A DNA stretch of 64,000 nt, from NCBI RefSeq assembly GCF_002105755.1, contig NZ_CP020821.1:2790001-2854000 (forward strand). The letters are read 5' to 3'. The DNA comes from Mycobacterium colombiense CECT 3035 (GTDB lineage: Bacteria > Actinomycetota > Actinomycetes > Mycobacteriales > Mycobacteriaceae). Numbering within the stretch: the first letter of the stretch is position 1; each line of letters starts with the position of its first letter. Made by a program: the position numbers and the translations under genes. Positions 392 to 39,816 of this stretch are shown piece after piece. Under the pieces are notes generated by a model. It searched no databases. It was not told where the DNA came from and saw only the letters and a program-made list of their open reading frames with translations.

Positions 392-420
392 CGCCGCCGA
401 CATCCGTTCGGCGGCAAGCC

Positions 421-1686: not shown

Positions 1687-1745
1687 GTGATCGATACTGC
1701 CCTATGCCACCGACACGGTGACGTTCAGCGTGAGCGCGCCGGGGC

Positions 1746-3715: not shown

Positions 3716-3790
3716 ACGTACATGGTGCCCGGTCGCCGCCGCGCGTGCGGCCCGGGGACCGCAGAGGGCGGGCTGCGCACGCCGCCCGAG

Positions 3791-3845
3791 TGTGCGGCGA
3801 GCCGCACAGCGGGCGCCGAGTGTGCGGCCTGCCGCGCACTCGGCG
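3791..3845. repeat. Pair of adjacent hairpins between fadD6 and folP2
   Basis: Hairpin 1 has 8-bp perfect arms (3791-3798 and 3801-3808) around a 2-nt loop. Hairpin 2 has 15-nt arms (3814-3828 and 3831-3845) with one mismatch (A-to-G, a G-U wobble in RNA) and a 2-nt loop. Both arms carry GTGTGCGGC-like cores. They sit in the 171-bp gap after the fadD6 stop side and before the folP2 start. They could act as a transcription barrier or be members of a dispersed mycobacterial intergenic repeat. No U-tract follows. Confidence 0.7.
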
Positions 3846-3886
3846 TAAGGGAGAACGGGTGAGCGTCAGCCCAGGGGTTGCGCTCC

Positions 3887-5665: not shown

Positions 5666-5739
5666 GTGATCCCCTCGATTCGTTTCCAATGTCAAGCTCG
5701 GCGGACAGCCTAGTAGGGGTGGCAAACCCGTCGGCGGGC

Positions 5740-6303: not shown

Positions 6304-6311
6304 ATCCGCCA

Positions 6312-6317
6312 AAGGTA
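6312..6317 (-). promoter_or_regulatory. Putative -10 box, leaderless LOG gene
   Basis: TACCTT on the minus strand, 8 nt before the ATG at 6303. This spacing puts the expected transcription start at or beside the A of the start codon. No clear -35 is visible. Confidence 0.45.
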
Positions 6318-6379
6318 GACCAACCGCATACGGCCCGTCATATCTGGGGCTTTCGCCCTGCCGCCCCGCCCACGCACCA

Positions 6380-6385
6380 TAAAAT
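6380..6385 (+). promoter_or_regulatory. Putative -10 box, leaderless ATPase gene
   Basis: TAAAAT ending 6 nt before the GTG at 6392, in a locally AT-rich spot. The predicted transcription start falls on the G of the start codon. There is no Shine-Dalgarno. Confidence 0.5.
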
Positions 6386-6391
6386 TCGGCA

Positions 6392-16743: not shown

Positions 16744-16882
16744 GCCGAGCAGCTTGGCATGTCAGGCGCGGTTCACCAAAGGGCGGCCGGGCGGTGCCGG
16801 CGGCTGTGCGTTGAGCACCCGCTTGCCGATCTAGGTGACGGATCTAAAACGAAAGCGATTCCGAGTACGCAGGGTGGTCGCC

Positions 16883-21840: not shown

Positions 21841-22803
21841 TTATCGGCGTGTCGTCAACGCCCGCAGGAAGAACGCCAGATTGGCCGGGCGTTCGGCCAG
21901 CCGCCGCATGAAGTAGCCGTACCACTGGGTGCCGAACGGGACGTACACCCGCACCGGGTTGCCCGCCGCGGCGAGACGTCGCTGTTCGTCGTCGCGGATG
22001 CCGTAGAGCATCTGGTATTCGAATTCGCGTCCGCGACGGCCCGATTCGCGTGACATCTCGGGCACCGCGGCGATGATCTCCGGGTCGTGGGTGGCCACCA
22101 TCGGGTAGCCCGACCCCGCCATCAGCACCCGAAGGCAGGCCAGGTACGAGTCGGTGACCTCGGTCGGCTCGCGGTAGGCCAGCGAGGCCGGTTCGTCGTA
22201 GGCGCCCTTGCACAGCCGAACCCGCGCGCCCGAGGCGGCGAATTCCTCGCAGTCGTCCAGGGTGCGCCGCAGATACGCCTGCAAAACCAGGCCCAGCCAG
22301 GGGAATTCGGTGCGCAGGTCGCGCACGATGCGCAGCGTCGAATCCGTGGTGGTGTGGTTCTCGGCGTCCACCGTCACCCACACGCCGGCACGCCGGGCGG
22401 CGTCGCAGATCGACCACGCGTTGTCCCGCGCGATCTTGTGCCCGTCGCGCTCCAGCGACTGCCCCAGCGCCGACAATTTCACCGAAACCTCGAAAGGCGC
22501 AGCGACGTCGAAATCGCCGGGCCCGCCGAGCTTCTCAATCAGGTCCAGGTAGGTCCGCACCGCCGCGTCGGCGTCGTCGGCGTCGGCGACGTCCTCGCCC
22601 AGATAGTCGACGCTGACGAGTCGGCCCGAATCACGCAGCGCCGCCACGCTGTTCAGCACGGATTCGATGGTCTCGCCGGGCACGAACCGGTGCACCACCT
22701 TGCGGGTGAGCGTCAGCCGTTCGGCGGTGCGACGCACGCCGTCGCGGCGGCCCGCGGCCAGGATCGCCGGGCGCAGTGTGCTGGCGAACAGTCCGGCCAT
22801 CAC
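21841..22803 (-). CDS. pruB: Proline dehydrogenase PruB
   Basis: A 320-residue monofunctional FAD-dependent proline dehydrogenase (Rv1188-like). It oxidises proline to delta-1-pyrroline-5-carboxylate and passes electrons to the respiratory chain. Landmarks are HRFVPGETIESVL, VKLSALGQ, RVRLCKGAYDEP and the conserved C-terminal VPFGTQWYGYFMRRLAERP, whose arginine pair binds the substrate carboxylate. Its ATG overlaps the rocA stop by 4 nt (ATGA), so the two enzymes of proline breakdown are co-translated. No frame anomaly. Confidence 0.93.
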   Translation of the reverse strand: MMAGLFASTLRPAILAAGRRDGVRRTAERLTLTRKVVHRFVPGETIESVLNSVAALRDSGRLVSVDYLGEDVADADDADAAVRTYLDLIEKLGGPGDFDVAAPFEVSVKLSALGQSLERDGHKIARDNAWSICDAARRAGVWVTVDAENHTTTDSTLRIVRDLRTEFPWLGLVLQAYLRRTLDDCEEFAASGARVRLCKGAYDEPASLAYREPTEVTDSYLACLRVLMAGSGYPMVATHDPEIIAAVPEMSRESGRRGREFEYQMLYGIRDDEQRRLAAAGNPVRVYVPFGTQWYGYFMRRLAERPANLAFFLRALTTRR

Positions 22804-24431
22804 TCGGCGCCCATGTGCGGATAGGTGTGGTCGCTTGCCGGGATGAAGGTCTCCTTGATGGTGCGAGCCGACGTCCAGCGCAACATGTTCAGCATCGATC
22901 CGGCCTTGTCGTTGGTGCCCGAGCCACGCGATCCCCCGAACGGCTGACGCCCGACGACCGCGCCCGTCGGCTTGTCGTTGACGTAGAAGTTCCCGGCGGC
23001 GAACCGCAACCGGTCCTGTGCCGTCAGCACGGCTTCGCGGTCGTCGGCGATGACGGCACCGGTCAGCGCGTACCGCGACCCCGTGTCGACGACGTCGAGG
23101 ATGCGCTCGTAATCGTCGTCGGGATACACGTGGACCGACAGCAGCGGGCCGAAGTATTCCGTCGCGAACGACTCGTCGCCAGGGTCATCGGACAGCAACA
23201 CCGTGGGCCGCACGAAATAGCCCTCGCGGTCGTCGTATTCGCCGCCGACGGCGATGGTGACGTGGGGCGCGCCCTTGGCGCGCTCGATGGCGTCGACGTT
23301 CTTGATGAAGGCGCGCCGGTCGATCAGCGCTCCCCCGTAGTTGGTCAGATCGGTCACGTCGCCGTAGCGCAGCGCGGCGGTCTTCCCCAGGAAGTCGTCA
23401 CCCATGCGGCGCCACACCGACTGCGCGACGAACGCGCGCGATGCGGCCGAGCATTTCTGCCCCTGGTAGTCGAACGCGCCGCGAATCAGGGCGGTGCACA
23501 ACACCTCCGGGCGTGCCGAGGCGTGCGCGACGACGAAGTCTTTGCCGCCGGTCTCGCCGACCAGCCGCGGATAGCTGTGGTAGCGGCCGATATTGGCGCC
23601 CACCTGCTGCCACAAATGCTGGAAGGTTGCCGTCGACCCGGTGAAGTGGATGCCCGCCAGCCTCGGATCGGACAGTGCTACATCGGAAACGGCGAGGCCG
23701 TCGCCGGTGACCAGGTTGATCACGCCGGGAGGCAGCCCAGCGGCCTCGAGCAGCCGCATGGTCAGATACGCCGACAGCGTCTGGGTGATCGACGGCTTCC
23801 ACACCACCGTGTTGCCCATCAGCGCCGGCGCCGTCGGCAGGTTGCCCGCTATCGAGGTGAAGTTGAACGGCGTGATCGCGTAGACGAAGCCGTCCAGCGG
23901 GCGGTACTCGCTGCGATTCCACTCCCCCGCCCCGCTGATCGGCTGCTGCGCCAGGATCTGTCGCGCGAACGCGACGTTGAACCGCCAGAAGTCGATCTGC
24001 TCGCACGGCGAGTCGATCTCGGCCTGATAGACGGACTTGGACTGGCCGAGCATCGTCGCGGCGGCGATCTTCTCCCGCCACGGGCCGGCCAGCAGGTCGG
24101 CGGCGCGCAGGAACACCGCCGCCCGCTCGTCGAAGGGCAGTCCGGCCCATGCGCGTTTCGCGGCCATCGCGGCCTCGATCGCCGCCGTCGCGTCGGCGTG
24201 CCCGGCGTTGGTCAGGGTGCCCAGCGTGGCGGAGTGCCGGTGCGGTTGGACGACGTCGATGCGCTCACCGTCGCCCATCCGGTGGGTGCCGCCGATGACG
24301 TGCGGCAGGTCGATCGGGCCATCGGCCAGCGCGGCCAGTTCGGTGGCCAGCCGGGCGCGTTCCGGCGAATGTGGGGCGTAGTCGTGGACCGGCTCGTTGG
24401 CCGGCATCGGGACCTGTGTTATCGCGTCCAT
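22800..24431 (-). CDS. rocA: Delta-1-pyrroline-5-carboxylate dehydrogenase RocA (PruA)
   Basis: A 543-residue ALDH-superfamily enzyme converting glutamate semialdehyde to glutamate with NAD+. The catalytic Cys is in YQGQKCSAASR and the general base Glu in RLVGETGGKD. ITPFNFTSIAGN and FTGSTATFQ form the substrate/coenzyme face. The length equals Rv1187. The ATG at 24431 was chosen over a longer frame for that reason, and a GGATCC/AAGG-like sequence precedes it. It heads the rocA-pruB operon and is divergent from a PucR-type regulator across 83 bp. Confidence 0.94.
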   Translation of the reverse strand: MDAITQVPMPANEPVHDYAPHSPERARLATELAALADGPIDLPHVIGGTHRMGDGERIDVVQPHRHSATLGTLTNAGHADATAAIEAAMAAKRAWAGLPFDERAAVFLRAADLLAGPWREKIAAATMLGQSKSVYQAEIDSPCEQIDFWRFNVAFARQILAQQPISGAGEWNRSEYRPLDGFVYAITPFNFTSIAGNLPTAPALMGNTVVWKPSITQTLSAYLTMRLLEAAGLPPGVINLVTGDGLAVSDVALSDPRLAGIHFTGSTATFQHLWQQVGANIGRYHSYPRLVGETGGKDFVVAHASARPEVLCTALIRGAFDYQGQKCSAASRAFVAQSVWRRMGDDFLGKTAALRYGDVTDLTNYGGALIDRRAFIKNVDAIERAKGAPHVTIAVGGEYDDREGYFVRPTVLLSDDPGDESFATEYFGPLLSVHVYPDDDYERILDVVDTGSRYALTGAVIADDREAVLTAQDRLRFAAGNFYVNDKPTGAVVGRQPFGGSRGSGTNDKAGSMLNMLRWTSARTIKETFIPASDHTYPHMGAE

Positions 24432-24514: not shown

Positions 24515-26110
24515 ATGGCCGGTGTGGGGCTGGGACAGCTGCTACTCGCGCTGGACGCGACCCTGGTGAGCCTGGTCGACGCGCCCCGCGGCCTGGACCT
24601 GCCGGTGGCGTCGGCCGCACTGATCGACTCCGACGACGTGCGGCTCGGCCTGGCCGCCGCGGCGGGTTCCGCGGATGTCTTCTTTTTGCTCGGCGTCGCC
24701 GACGACGAGGCGCTGCGCTGGGTGGACAAGCAGGCGCGCGAGCGCGTGCCGGTGGCCATATTCGTCAAAGAGCCGTCGAATGCCTTGGTGGCCAGGGCCG
24801 TTGCGGCCGGCTCGGCCGTGGTGGCCGCCGACCCGCGGGCCCGCTGGGAGCGGCTCTACCAGTTGGTCAACCACGTCCTGGAGCACCACGGGGACCGCGC
24901 GGACGCGACGGACGACTCGGGCACCGACCTGTTCGGGTTGGCGCAGTCGCTCGCCGACCGCATCCACGGCATGGTCAGCATCGAGAACGCCCAGTCGCAC
25001 GTCCTGGCGTACTCCGCGTCCAACGACGAAGCCGACGAGCTGCGCCGCCTCTCCATCCTGGGCAGGGCCGGCCCGCCCGACCATCTCGAGTGGATCGGCC
25101 AATGGGGCATCTTCGACGCGTTGCGGTCGGGCGGCGACGTGGTGCGCGTCGCCGAGCGTCCCGAGCTGGGGCTGCGCCCGCGACTGGCCGTCGGCATCTA
25201 CCGGCCCGCACCGGATGCGCGGCGGCCGCCGGTGTTCGCCGGAACCATCTGGGTGCAGCAGGGCTCGCAACCGCTGGCCGACGACGCCGAGGAGATGTTG
25301 CGGGGCGCCGCCGTGCTGGCCGGCCGCATCATGTCGCGGCTGGCGGCCCGGCCGTCGACGCATGCCCGGCGGGTGCAGCAGCTGCTGGGCCTCGCCGACG
25401 CGGAAACCCCTGCGGGGGTCGACGTTGCCGCGATCGCCGCCGAACTCGGCCTGGCCGCCGACGGCGACGCGGCGCTGATCGGTTGGGACGCGGCGGACGG
25501 TTCACCCGGACACGGCCGGCTCGCCGATGTTATCGCGCTGAGCGCCAGCGCCTTTCGCGCTGACTCCCAGGTCGCGTCGAACGGCGCGCGCACGTACGTG
25601 CTTGTCCCCCAGACGCGCAACCGTTCGGTCGCCTCGTGGGTGCGCGGCACCATCGGCGCCATGCGCGACGAACTCGGGGTGCAGCTACGCGCGGCCATCG
25701 CCGCACCGGTCGCCGGCCTGGCCGGGGTTGCCGCGGCGCGCACCGAGGTGGACCGCGTGCTGGACAGCGCTGAGCGGCACCCGATTTCGTTCGGGCAGGT
25801 GACATCGCTGGCCGAGGCGCGTACCACTGTTCTGCTAGATGAGATCGTGACCCTGGTCGGCGGCGACGAGCGGTTGATCGATCCGCGGATCGTGGCGCTG
25901 CGCGACGACGATCCGGTGCTGGCCGAGACGTTGCGGGTCTATCTGGACGCCTTCGGCGACATCGCGGCGGCCGCGCAATCGTTGCGGGTGCATCCGAATA
26001 CGGTTCGCTACCGGGTTAGGCGGATCGAGAAGTTGTTGTCGACGTCGCTGACCGATCCCGAGGTGCGGCTGCTGTTTTCGCTCGGATTGCGCGTGCTGGA
26101 AAGCCGTTGA
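24515..26110 (+). CDS. PucR/CdaR-type regulator of proline catabolism (Rv1186c-like)
   Basis: A 531-residue regulator. The C-terminus (about residues 470-525) carries the PucR helix-turn-helix: VYLDAFGDIAAAAQSLRVHP followed by NTVRYRVRRIEKLL. Upstream are a GGDEF-like/GAF-like central region and an N-terminal domain rich in Ala. Members of this family next to put/pru genes in actinobacteria activate them when proline is available, so control of the divergent rocA-pruB operon is the expected role. It is an inference from context. It ends 67 bp before fadD21 on the same strand. Confidence 0.86.
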   Translation: MAGVGLGQLLLALDATLVSLVDAPRGLDLPVASAALIDSDDVRLGLAAAAGSADVFFLLGVADDEALRWVDKQARERVPVAIFVKEPSNALVARAVAAGSAVVAADPRARWERLYQLVNHVLEHHGDRADATDDSGTDLFGLAQSLADRIHGMVSIENAQSHVLAYSASNDEADELRRLSILGRAGPPDHLEWIGQWGIFDALRSGGDVVRVAERPELGLRPRLAVGIYRPAPDARRPPVFAGTIWVQQGSQPLADDAEEMLRGAAVLAGRIMSRLAARPSTHARRVQQLLGLADAETPAGVDVAAIAAELGLAADGDAALIGWDAADGSPGHGRLADVIALSASAFRADSQVASNGARTYVLVPQTRNRSVASWVRGTIGAMRDELGVQLRAAIAAPVAGLAGVAAARTEVDRVLDSAERHPISFGQVTSLAEARTTVLLDEIVTLVGGDERLIDPRIVALRDDDPVLAETLRVYLDAFGDIAAAAQSLRVHPNTVRYRVRRIEKLLSTSLTDPEVRLLFSLGLRVLESR

Positions 26111-26176: not shown

Positions 26177-27913
26177 ATGCAGTCTTCGTCGGTCGTCTCC
26201 CTGTTGCGGGAACGCGCCGGCCTGCAACCCGACGACGTGGCGTTTCGGTACACCGATTACGAGCAGGACTGGGCCGGTGTCACCGAAAGCCTGACGTGGG
26301 CCCAGCTGTATCAGCGCACCCTGAACGTCGCGCACGAGGTCAAGCGGCACGGCACCGCCGGGGACCGCGCCGTCATCCTCGCCCCCCAGGGCGTCGGCTA
26401 CATCGTGGCGTTCCTGGGAGCGATCCAGGCCGGGCTGATCGCGGTCCCGCTCTCGGTGCCGCAGCCGGGCTCACACGACGAGCGCGTCGCCGCCGTCCTG
26501 GCCGACACCGCACCCTCCGTCGTCCTGACCACGTCCGCGGCCGCCGCGACCGTGAACGACTACCTGCACCACCCGGCGGCCGCCGGGCCCGCCGTCATCG
26601 CGATCGACGCGCTGGATCTGGACGAGCCGAATTCGTCGAGCATCCGGATCAGCGGCGCCCCGAGCATCGCCTACCTGCAGTACACGTCGGGCTCCACCCG
26701 CCTTCCGGCCGGCGTCATGGTTTCGCACCGCAACCTGCACGCGAACTTCCGGCAACTGATGGCCGCGTACTTTCCCGATTTCAACGGCGTGGCCCCGCGC
26801 GACACCGTCTGCGTGTCGTGGCTGCCCTTCTACCACGACATGGGGTTGATGCAGGGCGTCATCGCACCGATCCTGGGCGGCTACCGGGGCGATGTGACGA
26901 GCCCGATCGCGTTCCTGCAGCGCCCGGCGCGCTGGATTCACGCGATGTCCCAAACCAACCCGGTGTTCTCCGCCGCGCCGAACTTCGCCTTCGAGCTCGC
27001 GGTCCGCAAGACCACCGACGACGAGCTGGCCGGAGTCGACCTGGGCAACGTCATCAGCATCGTCAGCGGCGCCGAACGGATCCATCCCGCCACGCTCGAC
27101 CGGTTCTGTAAACGGTTCGCACCGTACGGCTTTCGCGAGCACATGATGCAGCCCTCCTACGGGCTGGCCGAGGCCACCGTCTACGTGGCCAGCCGCGCCG
27201 AGGGCGGCCCCCCGCGCGTCGTCCACTTCGAACCGGAGCGGATGTCGGAGGGCAGCGCGCAGCGGTGCCCGGCCGAAACCGGCTCACCGCTGCTGAGTTA
27301 CGGCACACCGACGTCGCCGATGGTGCGGATCGTCGACCCCGATACCCGCACTGGATGCCCGGCCGGGACGGTCGGTGAGATCTGGGTCAGCGGCGACAAC
27401 GTCGCCGACGGCTACTGGGAGAAGCCCGAGGACACCCGGCGCACCTTCGGCGGCGTCTTGGCCGGCGCGTCCTGCGGCACCCCCGAGGGCCCGTGGCTGC
27501 GCACCGGCGACCTCGGCTTCATCTGCGACGACGAGATGTTCATCGTGGGCCGGATGAAGGATCTGCTGATCGTCTACGGCCGCAACCACTATCCCGAAGA
27601 CATCGAGTCGACGGTGCAGCGGATCACCGGCGGCCGCGTCGCGGCGATCTCGGTTCCCGTCGACGAGACCGAAAAGTTGGTCACCATCATCGAATTGAAA
27701 AAGCGCGGTGATTCCGACGAAGACGCGAAGCGCACCCTCGACACCGTCAAGAACGACGTCACCGCGGCGATATCGAACTCGCACGGGCTCAACGTCGCCG
27801 ATCTGGTGCTGGTGGCGCCGGGATCGATTCCCACCACGACCAGCGGCAAGATCCGGCGGGCCGCGTGCGTCGAGCAGTACCGCCGCCGGCGGTTCACCCG
27901 GCTGGACGCCTAG
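26177..27913 (+). CDS. fadD21: Fatty-acyl-AMP ligase FadD21
   Basis: A 578-residue long-chain fatty acyl-AMP ligase (FAAL), which activates a fatty acid as the adenylate and hands it to a polyketide synthase instead of CoA. The A3 motif [16 protein letters not shown] and [10 protein letters not shown] are typical of mycobacterial FAALs, and [10 protein letters not shown] plus the final [19 protein letters not shown] close the fold. The length equals Rv1185c. Its natural partner in this window is the PKS at 30615-36947. The stop lies 2 nt from the stop of the convergent 109-residue gene. The chp2/papA3/mmpL10 genes I recall beside it in H37Rv are missing. Confidence 0.92.
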
Positions 27914-27915
27914 CC

Positions 27916-28245
27916 CTACTGGCTGTTCGCCGTCTGGGCTTCCTCGAGGAAGCGACCCACCACGTCGGGACCGGTGGAGTGCATCTTGATGGACAACTCG
28001 AGCAGCCTGTCCTTGACCCGCTTCGGGAGCAGCTCGATCGAGCGGGTGGTGGCCGAGTCGTACTTTGCACCGGGAAAGCGCTGCAGCAGAACGTCTTTCT
28101 GCTCGTCGGTGGTGTAGATCTCGAGCAGCTTCATGCCGGCGAACGCGTCGATCGCCCGGTCCGCCATTCCGGCATTCGCGAGCGCTTCCAGCCGTTCCTC
28201 GTTGATCCAGACGTTGACCTTGATCTTCTTCTCCGCAGTACTCAT
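27916..28245 (-). CDS. Unrecognised 109-residue protein coupled to sat
   Basis: A small acidic/basic helical protein beginning MSTAEKKIKVNVWINEERLE. It has no Cys, no signal peptide and no membrane helix. The middle reads AIDAFAGMKLLEIYTTDEQK and the end RLLELSIKMHSTGPDVVGRF, suggesting an alpha/beta fold with an amphipathic C-terminal helix. The ATG at 28245 overlaps the sat stop by 4 nt, so it is made together with ATP sulfurylase and may be its partner or regulator. I do not recognise the family. GC content and codon use look like those of its neighbours. The coupled arrangement makes it very likely a real gene. Confidence 0.85.
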   Translation of the reverse strand: MSTAEKKIKVNVWINEERLEALANAGMADRAIDAFAGMKLLEIYTTDEQKDVLLQRFPGAKYDSATTRSIELLPKRVKDRLLELSIKMHSTGPDVVGRFLEEAQTANSQ

Positions 28246-29501
28246 GAGTTCTCCAATTGGTTCAGCGTGAAGACCGGCAACCTGTCCTTCAGGTACTCCT
28301 CGGTGACGAACGGCGAGCCCTGGCCGTACTTGGCGGCGCTGTCCATCACCACCTCGAACACCTCGTGGCGCATCACCTGTTGGGTCGGCTTGACCTCGTC
28401 GGTCAGGATGCTGCGAATCAGGCTGCCGCTGAAGCTTTGTGATTGGTCGTCGTGGCCGCACAGCGCCGAGTTGGTGACCTCCTGGCACACCGGGCAGTAC
28501 CAGTTCTCCCGCAGGAACACCGGCTTGATCCCCAGCTCGCTGCGGTATTGCTTGAGGATGTTCTGCGAGTCGTAGGGGTGGTAGAAATCGCCGACCCCGG
28601 CGTGGTCCCGGCCGAACATGTGATGCGTGCAGCCGAGGTTCGTCCGCAGGATCGCGTGGAAGATGGCCTCGCGGGGCCCGGCGTAGCGCATGTCCCACAG
28701 CGTGAACGACACCAGGTGGACGTCCTCGCGGAAATACCCGCTCGTCCGTAACTCGTTCTGCGCCAGGAGGATCGCCTCGTCGATGTAGTCGCCGACGCGC
28801 TTCTGGCCGATGATGGCGTTGACCAGCACGCCGGTGTTCAGGTGGTCGACGGGCTGGTCCTCGTTCGCTGCCAGCCACGCTTGCTTCATCAACGCCTCGT
28901 GACCGGTGTGCGGAACGTTGCGGGTCTGATGGGCGACGGCACGCTTCCAGTTCTTCTTCGCCAGCGCGTCCTGGTGCTGCCGCGGCGTGAGCCAGAAGCT
29001 CTTGAAGGGTTCGTTGAACACCGGCTCGTTGATGAGCGTGATGTCGCCGCCGATGAAACGATTCGCGTAAGCCAGCGTCTTCTTGACACCCGGGTGCCGG
29101 GTATCCGCGGTGCCGTAGGTCTTTTCGGCCAAGCGCGCCAGGTCGTACTCGTAGATCTCGGAGACCTCCAAGATCGCCATCGGGGCGTCGAGATACTCGA
29201 GGACGACGCTGTGGCCCTCTTTCACCCCGTACTTGTCGACGTCGTCGGCGGACAGGTCGAAGACGATCGGGATGCTCCACAGCGTGCCGTCCGGCAGCTG
29301 GAAGTTGTCCAGCGTGCCATCCACCTCGCGGCGGCCCATGAAACCCGCCAGGGGGGTGAAGAAACCGTAGGACAGGCTGATCACCTCGTGCGCGGTGGCT
29401 TTGGAGATCGGGATGCGCGGCAACCCGTCAATCCGGCTCGCCGCATTCTCGGTGGACACTCGTTCCACGATCGGCTTCCCGTTATGGCCTTGGTAGCTCA
29501 T
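28242..29501 (-). CDS. sat: Sulfate adenylyltransferase (ATP sulfurylase, Sat type)
   Basis: A 419-residue single-chain ATP sulfurylase making adenylyl sulfate (APS) from ATP and sulfate. Active-site motifs are QTRNVPHTGH (192-201, including His198 and His201), VNAIIGQKRVGDY, and GPREAIFHAILRTNLGCTHH with GRDHAGVGDF (297-306). Cys336, Cys339, Cys348 and His350 resemble the zinc site of dissimilatory-type Sat enzymes. It is unrelated to the CysD/CysN pair that mycobacteria normally use. GAGGT lies 7 nt before the ATG at 29501, which decides the start over a longer frame. It sits in an operon with cysC and the 109-residue gene. Confidence 0.93.
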   Translation of the reverse strand: MSYQGHNGKPIVERVSTENAASRIDGLPRIPISKATAHEVISLSYGFFTPLAGFMGRREVDGTLDNFQLPDGTLWSIPIVFDLSADDVDKYGVKEGHSVVLEYLDAPMAILEVSEIYEYDLARLAEKTYGTADTRHPGVKKTLAYANRFIGGDITLINEPVFNEPFKSFWLTPRQHQDALAKKNWKRAVAHQTRNVPHTGHEALMKQAWLAANEDQPVDHLNTGVLVNAIIGQKRVGDYIDEAILLAQNELRTSGYFREDVHLVSFTLWDMRYAGPREAIFHAILRTNLGCTHHMFGRDHAGVGDFYHPYDSQNILKQYRSELGIKPVFLRENWYCPVCQEVTNSALCGHDDQSQSFSGSLIRSILTDEVKPTQQVMRHEVFEVVMDSAAKYGQGSPFVTEEYLKDRLPVFTLNQLENS

Positions 29502-29576
29502 GTAACTGACCTCGATTCGGTAATCAGCGGGTTGCGGTGGGACGGCTCCCGACGCCGTCACCGCCGTACCCGTCCG

Positions 29577-30245
29577 CTAAGCGTCCGGCCGTGCCGGGCC
29601 CGAGATGACGCCCGCGCGCTCGAGATGGGCGATCACTTCCTCGGCCAGCGTGTCCGCGTCCTTGGTGCCGCCGTCGAGCCGCAGCTCGGGCCGCGTCGGG
29701 GCCTCGTAGGGGTCGTCGATTCCGGTGAACCCTTTGATCTCGCCCGCGCGGGCTTTCTTGTACAGGCCTTTGGGATCACGCTGCTCGCAAATCTCAATCG
29801 GGGTGTCGATGAAGATCTCCTGGAAATCGCCGTCGTCCAGGGTGGCCCGAATCGCGTCACGATCGCGGACGTAGGGGCTGATGAAGGCCGTCAGCGCGAT
29901 GGCGCCGGACTCACAGAACAGCTTCGCGACCGCGCCGATGCGGCGGATGTTCTCCTCGCGATCCTGGGCCGAAAACCCGAGACCGAACCGCTTGGCGAAC
30001 TCGGGTCCGTGCCGCTCCTCGAGCAGTTCCGGACCGGCGTTGAGCCCATAACGGACGTTGTCCCCGTCCAGCAGAAAGCTGCGAATGCCCCGCTCGTAGA
30101 GCTTCTGCTCGACGACGTTGGCCACCGTGCTCTTGCCGCTGCCGCTCAGCCCGGTGAACCAGATGACGCAGCCCTTGTGGCCGTTGAGTCTTTCGCGTTC
30201 GGCGCGGCTTATCTGGTGTTCGTGCCAGGTGATGTTGTTCGACAT
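29577..30245 (-). CDS. cysC: Adenylylsulfate kinase CysC
   Basis: A 222-residue APS kinase phosphorylating APS to PAPS, the sulfate donor for sulfotransferases. The P-loop is GLSGSGKST (32-40), and the family markers FLLDGDNVRYGLN and LTAFISPYVRDRD follow. It is a free-standing enzyme, whereas the usual mycobacterial form is fused to CysN. AGGAG lies 6 nt before the ATG at 30245. Sat begins 75 nt downstream on the same strand. Together the pair makes PAPS from sulfate and ATP. I see no sulfotransferase gene in the window. Confidence 0.93.
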   Translation of the reverse strand: MSNNITWHEHQISRAERERLNGHKGCVIWFTGLSGSGKSTVANVVEQKLYERGIRSFLLDGDNVRYGLNAGPELLEERHGPEFAKRFGLGFSAQDREENIRRIGAVAKLFCESGAIALTAFISPYVRDRDAIRATLDDGDFQEIFIDTPIEICEQRDPKGLYKKARAGEIKGFTGIDDPYEAPTRPELRLDGGTKDADTLAEEVIAHLERAGVISGPARPDA

Positions 30246-30614
30246 TGCCAGCTCCTGTTCACCACGTCTCGACCGACACCGACGAAACCCGCACGGCCAC
30301 TTGCCATCCTCCGCATCACCGGTCGCCGCGATTGGTGGCCGACTTCGGCGCAGCAACCTCGTCGCATCGAGCCCGGTCACACACCTTCACCATATTGTTT
30401 ATCAATCAATCCGGATAAGAACCAGTCCACAAGTAAAGATGGTCAACTTACGGGAGTTTGCGTCGCCTCGCGGCGGCCGGCCGCGCAGTCGTGCGCCGGG
30501 CCCGGTAGCGGACCCGCCAGCAAATGAAATCGCGGCCGGTTGGGTCGGGCCGATCGGCACCACGCCCCGCCCCGCATACGACGGATCGCCGCGCGATGTG
30601 TGCCGAGGACCGGG
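30246..30614. other. Intergenic region between PKS and cysC, with an AT-rich patch
   Basis: This 369-bp gap lies downstream of the PKS stop and upstream of cysC. The stretch 30390-30450 is strikingly AT-rich (ATATTGTTTATCAATCAAT and nearby) in an otherwise very GC-rich region. On the minus strand it offers TTGACC near 30451-30456 and several weak -10 candidates. It probably contains the cysC-sat promoter and may be a transfer junction. No gene is seen. Confidence 0.5.
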
Positions 30615-33600
30615 TCAGGACGCTGACGGCGCGGCTTCCAGGCCGGCCAGCTCGTCGCACAGATGGTCGGCCAAATCCCGAACGGTGGTGATCTTGGTGG
30701 GGCTGACGCGCACCCCCGTCTCGGTTTCGATGCGGGTCCGCAGCTCCAGGTTCCCCAGCGAATCCAGACCGTAGTCGGACAGCGGCCGATCCGGATCGAT
30801 CGTCCGCCGGAGCAACAAGCTGATCTGACCGGAAACCAACCGGCGGATGGCCGACGGCCATTCCTCGCGCGGCAGCGCGCGCAGCTCGGCGAGGAACTTG
30901 CCGGTGTCCGGTTTGCCCTGGCCCAACGAGGCGAACGCTTCGGCAAAGCGGCTGCGTTGCGCGAAGGATGTCAGCCATGGCGTCCCCATGATCGGCGCGT
31001 AGCCGGAGTACGGGCGGTCGTAGCGCAGCAGCGTTTCGAAGGCGCGGAAACCCTCGGCGGGCGTGATCGCGATGCCGGCGTCCTCGGCCAGGGCCGTGGC
31101 CCGGCCGACCTCGGACCACGCTCCCCACGCGATGGAGGTGGCCGGAAGACCTTGGGCGCGGCGCCAATACGCGAACGCGTCCAGCCAGCTGTTGGCCGCG
31201 GCGTAGGCGCCCTGCCCCGGCGAACCCACCAGCGCCGCGGCCGACGAGAAGCAGCAGAACCAGTCGAGGGGCTGCTGCGCGGTGGCCTGATGCAGGTTCC
31301 ACGCGCCGTAAACCTTTGGCGCCCAGCACCGGTCGATCAGGTCGTCGGTGACGTTCGCCAGCGTGGCGTCCTGTACGACCGCGGCGGCGTGCAGCACGCC
31401 GCGCACCGGCAGCCCGGTGGCCGTGGCGCACGCCACCAGCCGCTCGGCCGTCTGCGGCTCGGCGATGTCACCGCACTCCACCGCGATGTCGGCCCCCGCG
31501 TCCCACAGCCGCTGGATGGCGTCGCGCGCCCGCTCGTCGGGCTGCGAGCGCGAGTTGAGGACGATCCGCCCGCAGCGCTCCGCGCCGTCGCGAGAGGCCA
31601 TCTGGCCGGCCAGAAACAAGCCCAGGCCGCCGATGCCGCCGGTGACGATGTAGGCGCCGTCGGCGCGGAACGGTCGCACCTGGTCCGGCGGCACCGCGGC
31701 CACGCTGCTTCCCGCGCGCGGCACCTGCAGCACCACCTTGCCGGTGTGGCCCGCGCCCGCGACCAGACGCACCGCTGCGGCCGCGTCATGGATCGGATAG
31801 TGCGTGGTGCGCGGCAACGGCAGTTCACCGGCCGCGGTGCGCTGGTACACGGTGGTCAACAAGCGCCGAACCGTATCCGGGTGGCTGAAAGTCAGCAGCG
31901 CGAGGTCGACGGCGAACAGCGAGAGGTTGCGCCGGAACGGGAACAGGCCCAGGTGGGTGTCGCCGTAGATGTCCCGCTTGCCCAGCTCGACGAAGCGTCC
32001 ACCGAGGGCCAGCAAGTCGATTCCCGCGCGCTGCGCGGCGCCGGGCAGCGAGTTGAGCACCACGTCGACGCCATACCCGCCGGTGTCGCGGCGGATCTGG
32101 CCGGCGAATTCCGTGCTGCGCGAGTCGTACACGTGCTCAATGCCCATGTCGTGCAGCAGTTGCCGGCGCTGCGGGCTGCCCGCGGTCGCGAAGATCTCAC
32201 AGCCCACGGCACGGGCTATCGCGATGGCCGCCTGGCCGACTCCACCGGTACCGGAATGGATGAGCACCTTGTCGGTCGGTGCGATGCGCGCCAGGTCGTG
32301 CAGGCCGTACCACGCGGTCGCGGCCGCGGTCGGCACCGCGGCCGCTGCGTCCAGCGGCACCTCGGGAGGCAGCGTGACCGCGTGCCGGGCATCGGCGATG
32401 ACGAAGGTGCCCCAGCATCCGTTGCGGGATATCCCGCCGACCCGGTCGCCGACCCGGTGCTCGGTGGCGTCGGGGCCGACGGCGGTCACCACGCCGGCGA
32501 AGTCGCCGCCCAACTGCTGCTGGTAGCCCTCGAAGGTCGGGTAGCGGCCAAAGGCGAGAAGAACATCCGCGAAGTTGACGGTCGACGAGGTCACCGCTAC
32601 CTCGATCTCCCCCGGCCCGGGCGGCACCCGGTCGAACGCGGCGAACTCCAGCGATTCGAGGTCACCGGGCGTGCGGATCTGCAGGCGCATGCCGCCGCGC
32701 TCGTGATCGACGACGGTGGTGCGCCGCTCGGACGGGCGAAGCGGACCCGGCCGCAGGCGCGCGGCGTACCACTGGCCGCCGCGCCAGGCGGTCTCGTCCT
32801 CTTCCGATCCGCTTTTCAGTTGCAGCGCAACGTGTTCGGGATCGGTCGCGTCGTCAACGTCGATCTGGGTGGCACTCAGATGCGGGTGCTCGGAGTCGAT
32901 CACCCGCATCAGTCCGCGCAGCCCGGCCTGCGCCAGGTTCGCCACGTCACCCGCGATCACGCTCGCCGCGTTGCGGGTGACCAGGTACAGCCGCGGCGAC
33001 TCCCCCGGCAGCTCCGAGAGCTCGCGGGCGACGGCCGCCAGGTGCGACACGTAATCCCGCCCGCGCCGCTGCGCGCGCGGCTCGTCCACGCCGCCATCGG
33101 GCGCCGCCACCAGCACAACGCCGGTCAGCCCCTTCAGCGGCCCGTGGCCGTTGGAGGCGGTCGCGCCGCCGGACAGCAGCGTCCGCAACTGTGGGGTATC
33201 CATGGTCCCAAGGGGAAAGGCCAGCGTGGTGCATTGCGCGCCATCGCAATTCAGCACCTCGGCAAGCCGCACCGGCAACGGGTCGTGATCGTCGGACGCG
33301 TTGAGCAGCACCCACGAACCGGGCTCGCCGTGCGCGGCCTCGGACGGCTCCCGCGGCTCCCAGTCGATGGTCAACAACCGCTCGTTGAGCAGCCGGTGGG
33401 CGTGTTCGTGTTCGGACGTGCCGCCGGACAACCGCAATCCCTCGACGGTCAACAGCACCGTTCCGGACTGGTCCAGCACGTCGAGGTCCGCCTCGCATTC
33501 GCCGGGTCGCGAGGACGTGACCCGGGTGAGGCAGTATTGCGCGTTACGCGTCGAGTGAAAGTTGCGCAGCCGGCGCACGCCGACCGGCAACAGCAGGCCG

Positions 33601-36600
33601 CCGGCTCCGGCCGCCTGCATCTGGGGTGAGACGACGACCGACTGGAAGCAGGCGTCGAGCAGAGCCGGGTGCGCGGCGTAGGCCGACTGCTGCGAGCGAA
33701 TGGCGCCGGGCAGTGCCACTTCGGCAAGCACCGTGGTGATCTCCCGGTCGGCAATCAGCACCGCGGTCAGGCCCGAAAACGCCGGACCATAGTGGATTCC
33801 GATGGCCTCGAACGCCTTTCGCAATTCCGCACCGTCCATGCGGGACGGGTGGTCGGCGATCAGCGTGGCCAGGTCGTGCGCGGGCGGCTGCTGCGGCTCG
33901 GCCGGGTCCGCGTCGGCATGCAGGACGGCGCTCGCCCGGCGGATGCGTTCGCCGTCCTCGTGGGTGTCCACAGCGAAGTCGAGAACGCCGGGCGCGGTGA
34001 CCGTCGCGACCGACGACGCCGGCGTCTCGTCGGCCAGCAACAGCGTCCGCTCGAACGCGACGTCGCGGACCTCTGCGCGTTCACCGAGTGCCGCGCGGGC
34101 GGCCGCGAGCGCCATCTCGCAATAAGCGGCACCGGGAAATGCTGCGACAGAGTGGATTTGGTGGTCTGCAAGCCAGGGGTGGTTCTCGGTGCCGATCTCG
34201 CCCTGCCAGACGTGGCGCTCGGGTTCCTCCCGCAGGTGCACGTGCGCGCCGAGCAGGGGGTGCACGGCGCGAACGGAGGCGCCGTGTGCCTGCTCGGTTG
34301 CCTCGCGGGTGAGCATCAGCCGGCGGTGGGTCCACGTCGGCAGCGGTGCGTCCACGAGTCGGCCGGTCGGATACTGGACGGCGAAGTCGACCTGGGCGCC
34401 GGCGCTGTGCACGTCGGCGACGAAGCCGCGCAGGCCGACCGGCAGCTCCTGCTCACGGCGCATGGCCGCCAGGGCGGCGATGGGCATGTCCAGGCTGGCG
34501 GCGTTCTGCTCGACGGCGTGCGTCAGCAGCGGATGCGGCGCCAGCTCGCCGAAGACGCGGAACCCATCCTTGAGTGCCGCCTGCACCGCGGCCGCGAATC
34601 GCACTGTGTAGCGGAGGTTTTCCGCCCAGTAGTCGCCGGTGAATGACGGCCGTTCGCGCGGATTCCACAGTGTCGACGAATAGTACGGAACCTCGGGGGC
34701 GGTCGGTTGCAGATCGGCGAGGGCGTCGACCAGCTCGTCGAGTATCGGCTCCACCTGCGGTGAATGCGAGGCGACGTCCACCGCCACCTCGCGCGCCAGC
34801 ACGTCCTGCTCCTGCCACGCCGCGACCAGATCGCGGATGGCCTGGGTGTCGCCGCCGACGACGGTCGATGTCGGCGACGCGACCACGGAGAGCACCACGT
34901 CGGAGATCCCGCGAATCGAAAGTTCGGACAGCACTTGCTGTCCCGGCAGTTCCACCGATGCCATCGCGCCGCTGCCCGCGATCCGCGCCATCAGCTTCGA
35001 GCGGCGGCAGATGACGCGCACACCGTCGGCGACCGACAACCCGCCGGCGACGACTGCCGCTGCGGATTCGCCGAGCGAATGCCCGATGACGGCGCCGGGG
35101 CGCACCCCGTAGGACTTCATCGTCTCGGCGAGAGCGACCTGCATCGCGAAGAGCGTCGGCTGCACCTTGTCGATGCCGGTCACCGTCTCCGGCGCCGTCA
35201 ACGCATCGGTTACCGAAAAGCCGGATTCCGCGGCGATCAACGGCTCGATGGACGCGATGGTCGCGGCGAACACCGGCTCCCCGGCCAGCAGTTCGGCGCC
35301 CATCTCCGGCCATTGCGAACCCTGGCCGGAGAACACCCACACCGGTCCGCGGTCGCCCTGTCCCACCGCGGGCTGGTATGGGATGTCGCTGTCGGCGACC
35401 GCGCGCAGCGCGGTGCGCAGTTCGCCGGAACTGTTCGCCGAGACCACGGTTCGCACCGGCCGGTGCGCGCGCCGCCGCGACAGCGTATAGCCCAGATCCC
35501 TTAGGCCCGCGGCACTCTCGCCGTCGAGGGCATCGCCCTCGTCCAGCCAGTCCGCCAGCCGGGCCGCCGTGACTCGCAGCTGCTCGGCGGAGGTGGCCGA
35601 CAGAGGAAACAGCAGCGGCCCCGCCGGTTCATCGGGTGCGTGCGCCGGTGCCTGCTCGGGGGCCTGCTCCAGGATGGCGTGCACGTTGGTGCCCGACATC
35701 CCGTATGACGACACCGCGGCGCGTCGCGGGTATTGGCCGTTGCGGGGCCACGGTGTATTGCTCTGCGGCACAAAGAGATTCGTCTTGATCCGGGCCATCT
35801 CGTCGGGAAGCCGGGTGAAGTGCAGGTTCTGGGGGACCACGGCGTGCTGCAGCGCGAGGATCGCCTTCATCAGTCCCAGCGGCCCGGACGTCGACTGCAT
35901 GTGGCCGAAGTTCGTCTTCACCGATCCCAGGGCGCAGGGTCCGCCCGTGCCGTATACGGCGGCCAGGCTGGCGAATTCGATCGGATCGCCGACGGGGGTG
36001 CCGGTGCCGTGCGCCTCCACCAGGCCGATCGTGGCGGCGTCGACGTCCGCGATCTGCAGGGCCTTCTGGTAGACCGCGACCTGGGCCGTTTCCGAGGGCG
36101 CCGCAATGTTCACGGTGCGGCCGTCCTGATTCGCCGCGGTGCCGCGCAGCACCGCCAGGATGCGATCGCCGTCGCGCCGCGCGTCGTCGAGCCGCTTGAG
36201 CAGCAGCATGACGCAGCCCTCGCCGGACACGAAGCCGTCGGCGCGCACGTCGAAGGCGTGACAGCGGCCGGTCGGGGACAGCATGCCCTGCAGCGAGCCC
36301 GACACGGACTTGCGTGGTTCCAGGGTCACCACGACTCCACCGGCCAGGGTGAGGTCGGATTCGCCGCTGCCGAGGCTGCCGCACGCCTGGTGGACGGCCA
36401 TCAGCCCCGACGAGCACGCCGTGTCCACCGTGACCGCCGGGCCGTGCAGGCCGAGGGTGTAGGCGACCCGCCCGGACGCGAAGCTGTTGCTGGTGCCGGT
36501 GAATCCGTACGGGCCTTCGGCCGCGCCGCAATCAGCGGACAGCAGTTCGTAGTCGCCGTGCGTCAGGCCGACGAACACCCCGGTCTGCGAATGCATCAGG

Positions 36601-36947
36601 GCGCCCGGGTCCAGGCCGGCGTGCTCGACGGCGTCCCAGGACGTCTCCAGCAGCAGGCGGTGCTGCGGATCGATCGCGGTGGCCTCGCGTTCGGTCATTC
36701 CGAAGAAGTCGCAGTCGAAGCCGCCCACGTCGTCGAGGAACGCACCCCAGCGGGTTACCGACCGTCCGGGCACCCCGGGCTCGGGGTCGTAGAACAGATC
36801 CGCATCCCACCGGTCGGCGGGAATTTCGCCGACCAGGTCGTCACCGCGCAGCAGCGCCTCCCACAGGCGTTGCGGGGAGTCGATCCCGCCGGGGAGTCGG
36901 CAGGCCATCCCGATGACGGCAACGGGTGTGGCGTTTGCAGCACGCAA
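30615..36947 (-). CDS. Fully reducing type I polyketide synthase (mycocerosic-acid-synthase type)
   Basis: A 2110-residue iterative-type PKS in the order KS-AT-DH-ER-KR-ACP. KS: Cys178 (VDTACSSGL), His313 (EAHGTGT), His349. AT: Ser624 in GHSLGES and VASHS at 725-729, the form seen in methylmalonyl-using MAS-like enzymes. [19 protein letters not shown] around 920 plus the acid in [37 protein letters not shown] with the catalytic Tyr in [21 protein letters not shown] near 2055. The expected product is a saturated, probably methyl-branched fatty acid. The start is TTG with AGGGGA upstream. FadD21 is the likely loader, and cysC-sat lie downstream on the same strand. Confidence 0.92.
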
Positions 36948-37369: not shown

Positions 37370-39733
37370 CTACGAATCGCCGGTTTGGTCGGAATCCTCG
37401 GATTCGGCGTCCTTCGCGGGGTCCTCGATAACCTGATATGCCGGATCGAGCATGGAGATGGCCCGCGTGCCGGACTGGCGCGCCTTCCCGGTGATCCGCA
37501 GCACCTGACCGGGCTGGATGTCCGCACCGCCGTTGCCCGGGCGGAACGTGACGGTCATTTCGCCGGTGCTGTCTCCGATGACGATCTGCCGGTGGGTCCG
37601 GCCGCGGGTCGTGACGTCTTCAACCTCGGTGACCCGCCCCTCGACGCTGGCGCGCTGCCCGGAGATCAGGCCCGCCACCATGATCACCGACCGGGGCCGA
37701 TCTGGATGTTCGTACGCGTCCACCTTCCGGTCCTCGTCCTGGGACACCCACGCCTCGATCTTGTCGATGCCCTCCCCGATCTTTTGCTCGAAGGTATCGG
37801 GGTAGGCCTCCCTGATCCTCGATTCGACGTCGTAGGGCACGATCGTCGCCGCGGCGTCGGGGATGAGGCTGACCGCCCGCGAGATCTTGTCGGCGGTGCG
37901 GTCGTGCAGCAGCCGGCCCAACAGCCGGGCGAAGGTCCGGCGCGGCAGCAGCACCGTCACGTTGGTGCGCGCGTTCTCCTCGCGCGCCTTGGCCACCAGC
38001 AGTTGCGCGGCCCGGCTGATCCGGCGGTCGGGGCAGTCCACGATCCGCAGCGGAGTGTCGAGTTCGAAATGGTCCCAACGCTTTCGCAGCAGCGCCGCGT
38101 GGGCCGGGTCGACCATGAAGTGCACCGCGATCAGCTCGTCGGCCCGCAATCCCCGGCCGTAGCGCAACGCCTCGATCACCGCCAGGTCGACGGAGTCGAC
38201 GAACACGAACACCCGGTGCCGCGAGTACTTCACCAACTCCGGGCGGTCGGTGCGGAACATCTCGAGAATCGCCGCCTCGGCGCGGTATTCGCGGTTGAGG
38301 CGGGTCAGCATGAACACCAGCAGGGGGAAGACGACGACCACCAGCCAGGCGCCCTCGGTGAACTTCGCCACCGCGAAGATCCCCACCACGATCGTCGACA
38401 GGACCGCGGCGGACAGGTTGATCGCCAGCCGGCGGCGCCAGCCCGGTTCCCGGTGCGTCAAATGGTGTTTGGTCATCCCGTAGCCGGCCATCGAGAAGCC
38501 GGTGAACACGCCGATCGCATAGAACGGCACCAGCGCGTTCACGGACCCGCCGGTGGCCACCAGCAACGCGACCGAGAGCGCCGTCAGCGTGATGATCCCA
38601 TTCGAAAACACCAGCCGATGCCCACGTTTGGTGAGCTGCCGGGGCAGGAAGCGATCCTCGGCGACGAAACTGGCCAGGGCTGGAAAGCCGTTGAAGCTGG
38701 TGTTCGCGCCGGTGAACAAGATCGCGGCCGTGGCCGCCTGGACCAGGACGTAGAAGACGTCGCCGACGGCGCCGCTGCCGAAGACGGCGCGGCCGATCTG
38801 CGACAGCACCGAGGGGTACTCCGTCAGATAGGGCGTCGCGTGGGTGACGTGGGCCAGGTAGGCGACACCGGCCAGTAGCAGGCCGAGGACGGTGGCCATC
38901 GCGGTCAGCACTCGACGCGCGTTGCGGCCCTGCGGCTTTCGGAAGTAGTCGACCGTGTTGGAGATGGCCTCGACCCCGGTCAGCGACGAACCGCCGTTGG
39001 CGAACGCCCGCAGCAGCACCAAGATCGTGGCGCCCAGCACCAGCCCGTTGCCCTGGTGCACCGGCACCGTCCCGGCCATGTGGGCGGGATCGTAGATCGG
39101 CAGGTTGCCGATGGCCGCGCGGACGACCCCGATCACGATGGTCAGCCCGACCATGACGATGAAGGAATAGGTCGCCACCGCGAACGGCAATCCCGCTTCC
39201 TTGAGGCCCCGCAGGTTGGCGTAGCAGATGATCAGCACCACGGCGACGGTCAGTTCGAGGCTGTACGGCCCCAGCGGCGGAATCGCCGAAACCACCGCGA
39301 CGGTGCCGGCGGCCGACTGCACCGCGACCGTCACCACATAGTCGATCAACAGGGCCGCGGCGGCGATCTGCGCGACCCGCGGCCCGAAATTGTCGCGCGC
39401 GACGATGTAGGAACCGCCGGCCCGGGTGTAGGCCATCACCACCTGCCGGTACGACGCGGCCACCAGCACCAGGATCAGCAGGATGACTCCGGTGATGGGC
39501 AGCAGCAGCAGGAACGCGGCCAGGCCGGCGTGGGGCAACAGTTCGATCAGGATCTGCTCGGGACCGTACGCGACCGAGGACACGGCGTCAGGCGAAAGTG
39601 CACCCAGCGCAACGGAATTCGACAGCTTCTCGGAAGCGATGTCCTCGGTGATCAGCGGCTTACCGAGAAACACCCGCTTGGCGATGTCCCCTAGCGACAG
39701 CGGGATCCGCAGCTTGCCTGTCGAACCGGTCAC
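37370..39733 (-). CDS. APC-family amino-acid permease with C-terminal OB-fold
   Basis: A 787-residue protein. Residues 1-490 or so are an amino acid-polyamine-organocation transporter with about twelve membrane helices. GALSPDAVSSVAYGPEQIL and the Gly-rich TRAGGSYIVARDNFG helix are typical. A cytosolic alpha/beta domain follows (RHRVFVFVDSVDLAVIEALR onward). The last 100 residues form an OB-fold-like segment (ASVEGRVTEVEDVTTRGR to TGKARQSG). In H37Rv a similar permease (Rv2690c) and a separate OB-fold gene (Rv2694c) lie near ceoBC, as I recall. The GTG at 39733 was chosen because AAGGA lies 8 nt upstream. An upstream GTG at 39784 is possible. Substrate unknown. Confidence 0.85.
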   Translation of the reverse strand: MTGSTGKLRIPLSLGDIAKRVFLGKPLITEDIASEKLSNSVALGALSPDAVSSVAYGPEQILIELLPHAGLAAFLLLLPITGVILLILVLVAASYRQVVMAYTRAGGSYIVARDNFGPRVAQIAAAALLIDYVVTVAVQSAAGTVAVVSAIPPLGPYSLELTVAVVLIICYANLRGLKEAGLPFAVATYSFIVMVGLTIVIGVVRAAIGNLPIYDPAHMAGTVPVHQGNGLVLGATILVLLRAFANGGSSLTGVEAISNTVDYFRKPQGRNARRVLTAMATVLGLLLAGVAYLAHVTHATPYLTEYPSVLSQIGRAVFGSGAVGDVFYVLVQAATAAILFTGANTSFNGFPALASFVAEDRFLPRQLTKRGHRLVFSNGIITLTALSVALLVATGGSVNALVPFYAIGVFTGFSMAGYGMTKHHLTHREPGWRRRLAINLSAAVLSTIVVGIFAVAKFTEGAWLVVVVFPLLVFMLTRLNREYRAEAAILEMFRTDRPELVKYSRHRVFVFVDSVDLAVIEALRYGRGLRADELIAVHFMVDPAHAALLRKRWDHFELDTPLRIVDCPDRRISRAAQLLVAKAREENARTNVTVLLPRRTFARLLGRLLHDRTADKISRAVSLIPDAAATIVPYDVESRIREAYPDTFEQKIGEGIDKIEAWVSQDEDRKVDAYEHPDRPRSVIMVAGLISGQRASVEGRVTEVEDVTTRGRTHRQIVIGDSTGEMTVTFRPGNGGADIQPGQVLRITGKARQSGTRAISMLDPAYQVIEDPAKDAESEDSDQTGDS

Positions 39734-39816
39734 GAGCACCGTCCTTCCCCGGAGAACGTGAGACTCCTTCGATGCATTGTGCACGCTCGCCCGCCCCGGG
39801 CGCCCGCGCGGCGCGG

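Follow-up and report, generated by a model that had tools for sequence, protein, structure and literature searches.

The DNA considered here is a stretch of 64,000 nucleotides (the window, to which coordinates refer unless stated otherwise) from Mycobacterium colombiense CECT 3035, whose genome (G000) is a single contig of 5.58 Mb. It carries three consecutive minus-strand genes, cysC, sat, and a small gene of the family DUF6955, hereafter the cassette, which could supply 3′-phosphoadenosine 5′-phosphosulfate (PAPS) for sulfation. The cassette begins with cysC (29577-30245, 222 amino acids (aa)), predicted to encode a stand-alone adenosine 5′-phosphosulfate (APS) kinase. The ATG at 30245 is taken as its start, the start at 30380 given by an open reading frame finder being too long. 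The protein matches the APS_kinase family PF01583 with 213.9 bits, above the cut-off, and keeps the P-loop together with DGDNVR, DREENIRR, ISPY, and KGLYKKA; the P-loop and the APS-binding motifs are what we take to be the signature of APS kinases. An insertion of ~17 aa follows DGDNVRYGLNA and is absent from a plant APS kinase used for comparison. After 75 bp comes sat (28242-29501), whose product of 419 aa, equal in length to its nearest relatives, scores 486 bits on NF003166 as a single-gene ATP sulfurylase, contains both Sat-type domains (PF01747 and PF14306), and keeps QTRNVPHTGH and GRDHAG, in line with the QxRNxxHxxH and GRD motifs of Sat-type ATP sulfurylases. Judged by domains and motifs, the two proteins are an ATP sulfurylase and an APS kinase, and they are predicted to be active as such. 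The third gene (27916-28245) overlaps sat by 4 bp and encodes a 109-aa DUF6955 protein (PF22271, 109.1 bits at a cut-off of 27).

The cassette is enclosed by genes of lipid type. Upstream of cysC, at a distance of 369 bp, lies a minus-strand gene for a Mas/Pks2-type iterative reducing polyketide synthase (PKS; 30615-36947, 2110 aa, Pfam domain order KS-AT-DH-ER-KR-ACP), and on the opposite side the plus-strand fatty-acyl-AMP ligase (FAAL) gene fadD21 (26177-27913; NF038337, 1230 bits at a cut-off of 1100) converges with the DUF6955 gene, their ends being 2 bp apart. A preliminary description of this DNA had placed the same five genes in this arrangement, and all five lie where it put them. The surrounding slot is bounded by a plus-strand PucR-type regulator (24515-26110) and, on the other side, a minus-strand APC-family permease (37370-39784), both recognized by family scan and locus comparison, while a minus-strand dehydrogenase (22800-24431), identified by sequence and locus comparison and presumably RocA-like, forms the outer flank. 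The order is thus RocA-PucR-FadD21-DUF6955-Sat-CysC-PKS-APC. The three cassette genes have a third-position GC content (0.86-0.91) similar to that of the flanks and a total GC content (0.61-0.65) slightly below the 0.67-0.72 of the flanks. In agreement with the preliminary description, tblastn with Stf0 and Sulfotransfer_1-type (ST1) queries detected no sulfotransferase in the window (E ≤ 1e-8, ≥60 bits).

Distribution of Sat, Stf0 and CysD2 among mycobacteria

The organism also has the usual mycobacterial sulfate activation genes. A CysD (483 bits) and a CysNC-type gene (L121), the latter 48% identical to the family-scanned CysNC of a relative (G195), are both located at ~2.70-2.71 Mb of G000, so that an ATP sulfurylase and an APS kinase are present apart from housekeeping CysDNC and Sat does not substitute for a missing CysDN. 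A simple replacement of CysDN by Sat, which the preliminary description had raised as the reading that would undo its own, is therefore rejected for this organism. CysD was found at E ≤ 5.0e-142 in 18 of 20 Sat genomes, including the present one; the exceptions are G103 (3.1e-75, an assembly of 600 contigs) and G165 (1.7e-10, below the cut-off).

These 20 genomes come from a survey of 198 Mycobacterium genomes drawn evenly from the larger genus. Sat and DUF6955 occur in the identical 20 genomes, and every one of them carries the sulfotransferase Stf0, compared to 127 of the 178 others (147 of 198 overall; positive at E ≤ 0.001, with 146 above the family cut-off). The Stf0 of G000 scores 452 bits on NF047724, the equivalog model of trehalose 2-sulfotransferase (cut-off 400), and all seven Stf0 proteins scanned from different places in Sat-positive genomes, including this one, pass that cut-off. 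Stf0 catalyses the first step of the sulfolipid-1 (SL-1) pathway.

A second CysD, CysD2, shows the opposite distribution. Called at E ≤ 1e-155 (≥86% identity), it is present in at least 79 of 198 genomes, all Stf0-positive; the number is a lower bound because, among the sampled genomes counted as having neither Sat nor CysD2, one (L211, G168) has CysD2 in two pieces and another (L216, G105) a 40-residue piece of it. The CysD2 proteins share 86-100% identity with the one in G195 and 66% with the housekeeping CysD of G000. In at least 75 of the 79 genomes the gene comes immediately after stf0 in the same orientation, with a median gap of 62 bp and a largest gap of 358 bp. CysD2 was found in none of the 20 Sat genomes, G000 included, compared to 79 of the 178 others. 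The probability of such an absence of overlap by chance, relatedness being ignored, is 1.9e-5 across the 198 genomes and 3.5e-8 across the 147 with Stf0. On an Stf0 tree of 67 rows, two of which (L182 and L183) are flagged as long-branched, 6 changes of the Sat label are required, and supported branches force no fewer than 4 of these, so that a single division into two clades does not account for the pattern. In G000, stf0 and yeiH are intact in frame with no CysD2 between them, at the place where G195 has cysD2-cysNC2. Taken together, CysD and CysNC elsewhere in the genome, the conserved motifs, the constancy of Stf0, and the exclusion of CysD2 make a dedicated second PAPS route in this organism, as the preliminary description had it, well supported.

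The positions of the two modules point in the same direction. The neighbourhood of stf0 was retrieved from every Sat genome and from two samples of 20, one out of the 79 CysD2 genomes and one out of the 48 Stf0-positive genomes lacking both modules; the two samples were hand-picked, mostly well assembled, and reach only ~2-4 kb upstream of stf0. Within this reach, stf0 is closely preceded by PucR and/or RocA in 9 of the 20 CysD2 genomes, and YeiH follows CysNC2 in 9 of these 20 neighbourhoods, once with an intervening PPE-like match. In the Sat genomes, YeiH directly follows an stf0 copy in 11 of 20. The slot of G195 (L143/L153) reads APC-PKS-PapA-MmpL-(antiporter remnant)-Chp-Sap-FadD21-YeiH-CysNC2-CysD2-Stf0-PucR-RocA, its mmpL match containing one in-frame TAG. 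Mutual exclusion in combination with the shared pucR/rocA slot makes Sat-CysC look like a non-orthologous replacement of the PAPS module of Stf0.

Gene order around Sat was compared over 40 named mycobacterial Sat loci, the 5 archaeal ones among 45 being left out. CysC is complete in 36 and DUF6955 in 37, and the recurrence of cysC-sat-DUF6955 in most of them is not expected by chance. A complete sulfotransferase gene was found in the fetched stretch of 9 of the 40 loci (Stf0 in 4, ST1 in 8), Stf0 being restricted to L045, L047, L049, and L065. The cassette is accompanied by ST1, Sap, and Stf0 in M. interjectum (L049 and L065) and M. bohemicum (L047), whereas L045 unites PKS, CysC, Sat, DUF6955, Sap, FadD21, Stf0, PucR, and RocA in a single locus.

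A comparable arrangement is known outside the genus. For the cysN2C-cysD2-stf0 cluster of Rhodococcus qingshengii IGTS8, the authors proposed a supply of PAPS for Stf0 (PMC8557817). The cassette resembles that system in being a second PAPS module apart from housekeeping CysDN and associated with Stf0, and the corresponding CysD2 modules of mycobacteria stand in part beside pucR/rocA, as the cassette does. It differs in having DUF6955, a distant stf0, a CysC that stands by itself, and, as ATP sulfurylase, a Sat unrelated to the GTPase-coupled CysD/CysN of that system.

Archaeal affinity of Sat and the proposed replacement

The source of Sat was addressed with a tree of 43 hand-chosen rows under midpoint rooting, in which the archaeal rows are metagenome bins. 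All named mycobacterial rows and two unlabelled ones form a clade of 24 rows (100/99), which lies next to a Thermoplasmataceae protein (98/95) and is nested among other Thermoplasmatota rows, with sulfate-reducing Firmicutes outside. Strain SM1 and Candidatus M. methanotrophicum, the record title of which mentions a Sulfur Cave, are placed close to the base of this clade; no DUF6955 was seen adjoining the Sat of Candidatus M. methanotrophicum. In the three Thermoplasmata loci inspected of five (L057, L058, and L060), sat-DUF6955 is accompanied by AprA-like genes, and genes of the AprB or TauE type also occur; Pfam backs AprA/AprB in L058 and TauE in L060. Dissimilatory Sat with AprBA is known from the sat-aprMBA genes of Allochromatium (PMC3779200). 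The window Sat belongs to the same family and shares the DUF6955 partner with the Thermoplasmata loci, but is coupled to an APS kinase and not to an APS reductase. M. icosiumassiliensis has two Sat copies, one (L064) beside CysH and a nitrite/sulfite-reductase-like gene and the other (L052) with ST1, an MFS transporter, and CysC. These contexts suggest that Sat arrived for assimilation or oxidation and was later recruited to sulfation, in what would be the likely order of events.

The near-constant pairing of DUF6955 with Sat in archaea and mycobacteria makes an accessory role for Sat the simplest reading, and the protein may be a small subunit of the enzyme. Across 21 homologues, 26 columns are invariant, and the predicted structure has a mean pLDDT of 89.1. 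Comparison of the model with solved folds by Foldseek and VIA-align gave no convincing match; designed PPR proteins hit at the sequence level (best E 4.8e-9), the top hits lacking any single passing stretch, were not accepted as homologues. The term DUF6955 was not found in the literature searched, from which subscription papers were mostly absent.

On this basis, we propose, with a probability of roughly 70%, that cysC-sat-DUF6955 is a PAPS factory dedicated to the sulfation branch, replacing the Stf0-linked CysD2-CysNC2, and that its Sat-DUF6955 pair is of archaeal origin. Sat would convert sulfate and ATP into APS, and CysC would phosphorylate APS to PAPS, thereby drawing the unfavourable Sat reaction forward. 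The PAPS could then be used by sulfotransferases, above all by Stf0, which in this strain would sulfate trehalose, and the sulfated sugar might be acylated further with the product of the PKS and FadD21. The Sat-DUF6955 pair would have been acquired from a Thermoplasmata-like archaeon, where it adjoins APS reductase, and then joined to a cysC, the resulting cassette taking over from CysD2-CysNC2, which in some mycobacteria is located in the identical chromosomal slot. Because an archaeal-type pair stands at the place where some relatives keep the sulfate-activating set of Stf0, sulfated trehalose or sulfolipids are the probable destination of the activated sulfate that it would supply. A more far-reaching version has about an even chance of being correct: that an archaeal dissimilatory-type Sat with DUF6955 was captured, wired to a free-standing CysC, and substituted for CysD2-CysNC2 in place; that DUF6955 is a new obligate subunit or regulator; and that M. 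colombiense, M. scrofulaceum, M. interjectum, and related groups make sulfated trehalose, which some lineages acylate to sulfolipids outside the tuberculosis complex.

Several observations weigh against the proposal of a sulfation-dedicated replacement module. In G000, stf0 does not adjoin sat but lies ~785 kb from it. Stf0 is common in any case, 48 Stf0-positive genomes have neither module at the thresholds used, and the P-values above ignore phylogeny, the Sat label still being clustered on the Stf0 tree. PucR/RocA beside stf0 is a feature of fewer than half of the sampled CysD2 genomes; G023, in which PKS-PapA-MmpL-Chp-FadD21-CysNC2-CysD2-Stf0 stand together, has neither beside stf0 in the stretch seen, and 9 of the 20 Sat genomes have no YeiH after stf0. 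CysC is missing near Sat in 4 of the 40 loci (L053, L054, L064, and L061, the last truncated by the end of its contig), and the 20-kb stretch of G083 has none either. The L064 copy of Sat-DUF6955 beside CysH, and G165 with two Sat and no CysD over the cut-off, mean that the Sat lineage can also serve assimilation.

The proposed replacement has a wider meaning. The distribution suggests that sulfation in mycobacteria is commonly provided with activated sulfate apart from cysteine synthesis, a role filled by two unrelated enzyme sets which in some species occupy one chromosomal place. A group of non-tuberculous species is predicted to contain sulfated trehalose or sulfolipids, and DUF6955 becomes a candidate partner of ATP sulfurylase. 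A literature search with few subscription papers in its reach, and conducted for the most part on listings and abstracts, brought up neither a Sat/CysC cassette in mycobacteria nor sulfated trehalose or sulfolipids in this non-tuberculous group.

Lipid genes, other sulfotransferases and alternative roles

The proximity of the PKS raises the possibility that the cassette serves the neighbouring PKS/FAAL pair, providing PAPS for an SL-1-like acylated trehalose sulfate with a PKS-made acyl chain; this is conceivable but rather unlikely. A FadD21 above the curated cut-off is present in 14 Sat genomes out of 20 compared to 3 of 178 others, with the reservation that fadD21 is a linked gene of this locus. 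The cassette is combined with lipid-assembly genes in L045 and in L037/L163; in the latter it is bordered on one side by chp-sap-fadD21 and on the other by an MmpL10-like gene, beyond which lie a PapA fragment and the PKS. The PKS-PapA-MmpL-Chp-FadD21 sets of G195 and G023 are likewise accompanied by CysD2-CysNC2-Stf0. A sulfated-lipid link, as put forward in the preliminary description, is therefore supported for relatives, by the frequency of FadD21 and by the L045 and L143/L153 loci. The special bond with this PKS/FAAL pair that the same description saw is not supported. Among 17 fully visible slots, defined as those whose fetched stretch includes complete matches to APC and to either PucR or RocA, CysC, Sat, and DUF6955 are present in all 17, whereas a complete PKS is present in 8 and missing in 9, and a complete FadD21 is present in 11 and missing in 6. 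PKS fragments are seen in L034 and L038, and FadD21 fragments in L024. At the thresholds applied, FadD21, ST1, and MmpL10-like genes are all missing from three Sat genomes, of which two (G103 and G129) retain Stf0-YeiH and the third (G083) has an Stf0 that is not accompanied by YeiH. Since the cassette outlasts the loss of the PKS, a strict PKS partnership is rejected as the main cause of the pattern. The PKS is dispensable to it, and Stf0, not the PKS, is the constant partner of the cassette. Since some genomes retain the cassette without PKS, FadD21, or MmpL, it could serve to make trehalose sulfate independently of this lipid, or some other sulfated compound; the sulfated product is inferred.

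SL-1 biosynthesis involves Pks2, FadD23, PapA1, and MmpL8, and the DAT/PAT locus of M. tuberculosis comprises pks3/4, papA3, mmpL10, chp2, and fadD21 (PMC9989471 and PMC4183827, respectively). In the window, the PKS and the FAAL of such loci are present, whereas tblastn detected no PapA, MmpL, Chp, or Sap. With the DAT/PAT locus, the window locus shares FadD21 and a Pks2/3/4-type PKS, but it has sulfate activation genes in addition. The H37Rv layout given in the preliminary description (pks3/pks4, papA3, mmpL10, chp2) agrees with that published locus and with the DAT/PAT layout of the Sat-negative loci L145-L147. With the SL-1 pathway, the common features are Stf0 in the genome, the PKS score on a Pks2 model, and the Sap (sulfolipid-1-addressing) genes of related loci; FadD21 in place of FadD23 and the lack of local PapA/MmpL are the differences. 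The PKS scores 3537 bits on the NCBIfam model NF041183, Pks2_ls1 (cut-off 2400). This model cannot distinguish Pks2 from Pks3/4-type enzymes because the PKS at the pks-papA-mmpL locus of a relative scores 3565 bits, and the Pks2 label was rejected as proof of a sulfolipid PKS.

Elsewhere in G000, at C1:2111278-2129012 (L161 and L162), Sap, large PKS genes, PapA, Chp, and MmpL lie together, so that lipid-assembly genes missing from the window are present at ~2.11-2.13 Mb. This locus resembles the trehalose polyphleate set, given as pks-papA3-mmpL10-fadD23-pE in PMC10465359, although the stretch in G000 showed no FadD21-like match. Its MmpL is 74% identical to that of the PKS-FadD21-CysD2-Stf0 locus of G023, the best matches to which in 13 other Sat genomes are only 61-66% identical. 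In Mycobacterium sp. E1214 (L063), a different, large PKS gene (2-8794) is found upstream of CysC-Sat-DUF6955.

Other assignments of the cassette are less probable than service to the PKS. It could belong to the product of an ST1 enzyme, the adjacency of pks and fadD21 being mere geography, which we regard as improbable. The cassette does travel with ST1 as MFS-cysC-sat-DUF6955-ST1-cation antiporter, ST1 being the next recognized gene after DUF6955 in 6 of the 40 loci (L036, L042, L047, L048, L049, and L065) and nearby in L052 and L062, and ST1 (E ≤ 1e-60) occurs in 6 of 20 Sat genomes compared to 3 of 178 others. The remaining 14 Sat genomes, including G000, keep the cassette without ST1, whereas Stf0 is present in all 20. 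Slightly less probable again is that Sat backs up or replaces CysDN in assimilatory sulfate reduction. Such a role would fit the L064 context and the low CysD scores of G165 and G103, and in G165 (L138-L140), which has two Sat, three CysC, and three ST1 matches, Sat may have taken over assimilation. Against it stand the clear CysD matches in the other 18 Sat genomes and the APS kinase of the cassette, which is not needed for assimilation via APS reductase; no CysH was seen in the window locus. An APS branchpoint has been described for M. tuberculosis (PMC3141025). A reverse reaction of Sat with APS reductase, oxidising sulfite to make ATP as presumably in the archaeal source, is very improbable even though the AprA/AprB-like genes beside sat-DUF6955 in the inspected Thermoplasmata loci speak for it. 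The cassette carries CysC in place of AprBA, and an AprB-type match was obtained in none of the 20 Sat genomes and 2 others, a weak negative as the control genomes were equally silent.

Minor features of the window and related loci

A scan for promoters and terminators gave nothing exceeding shuffled sequences, and Rfam gave no match. Other genes recognized by family scan between 3887 and 60114 are fadD6, dapE, dapC, cofGH (F420), mshB, and narH, none of them related to sulfation. Beside stf0 or the Sat cassette, a NarK-like MFS transporter recurs in L219, L221, L036, L042, L047, L048, L049, L052, and L065, suggesting an anion (perhaps sulfate) transporter for the sulfation pathway. In L143, from a Sat-negative genome, a 58-residue match to a CPA2-type antiporter (16718-16891) lies beside mmpL, a possible trace of the ST1/antiporter part of the cassette at this place. 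Another Sat-negative genome (G058, C116, L135) has Stf0-YeiH-Sap-antiporter-ST1-MFS between PucR and APC, an island of the interjectum type without cysC-sat-DUF6955.

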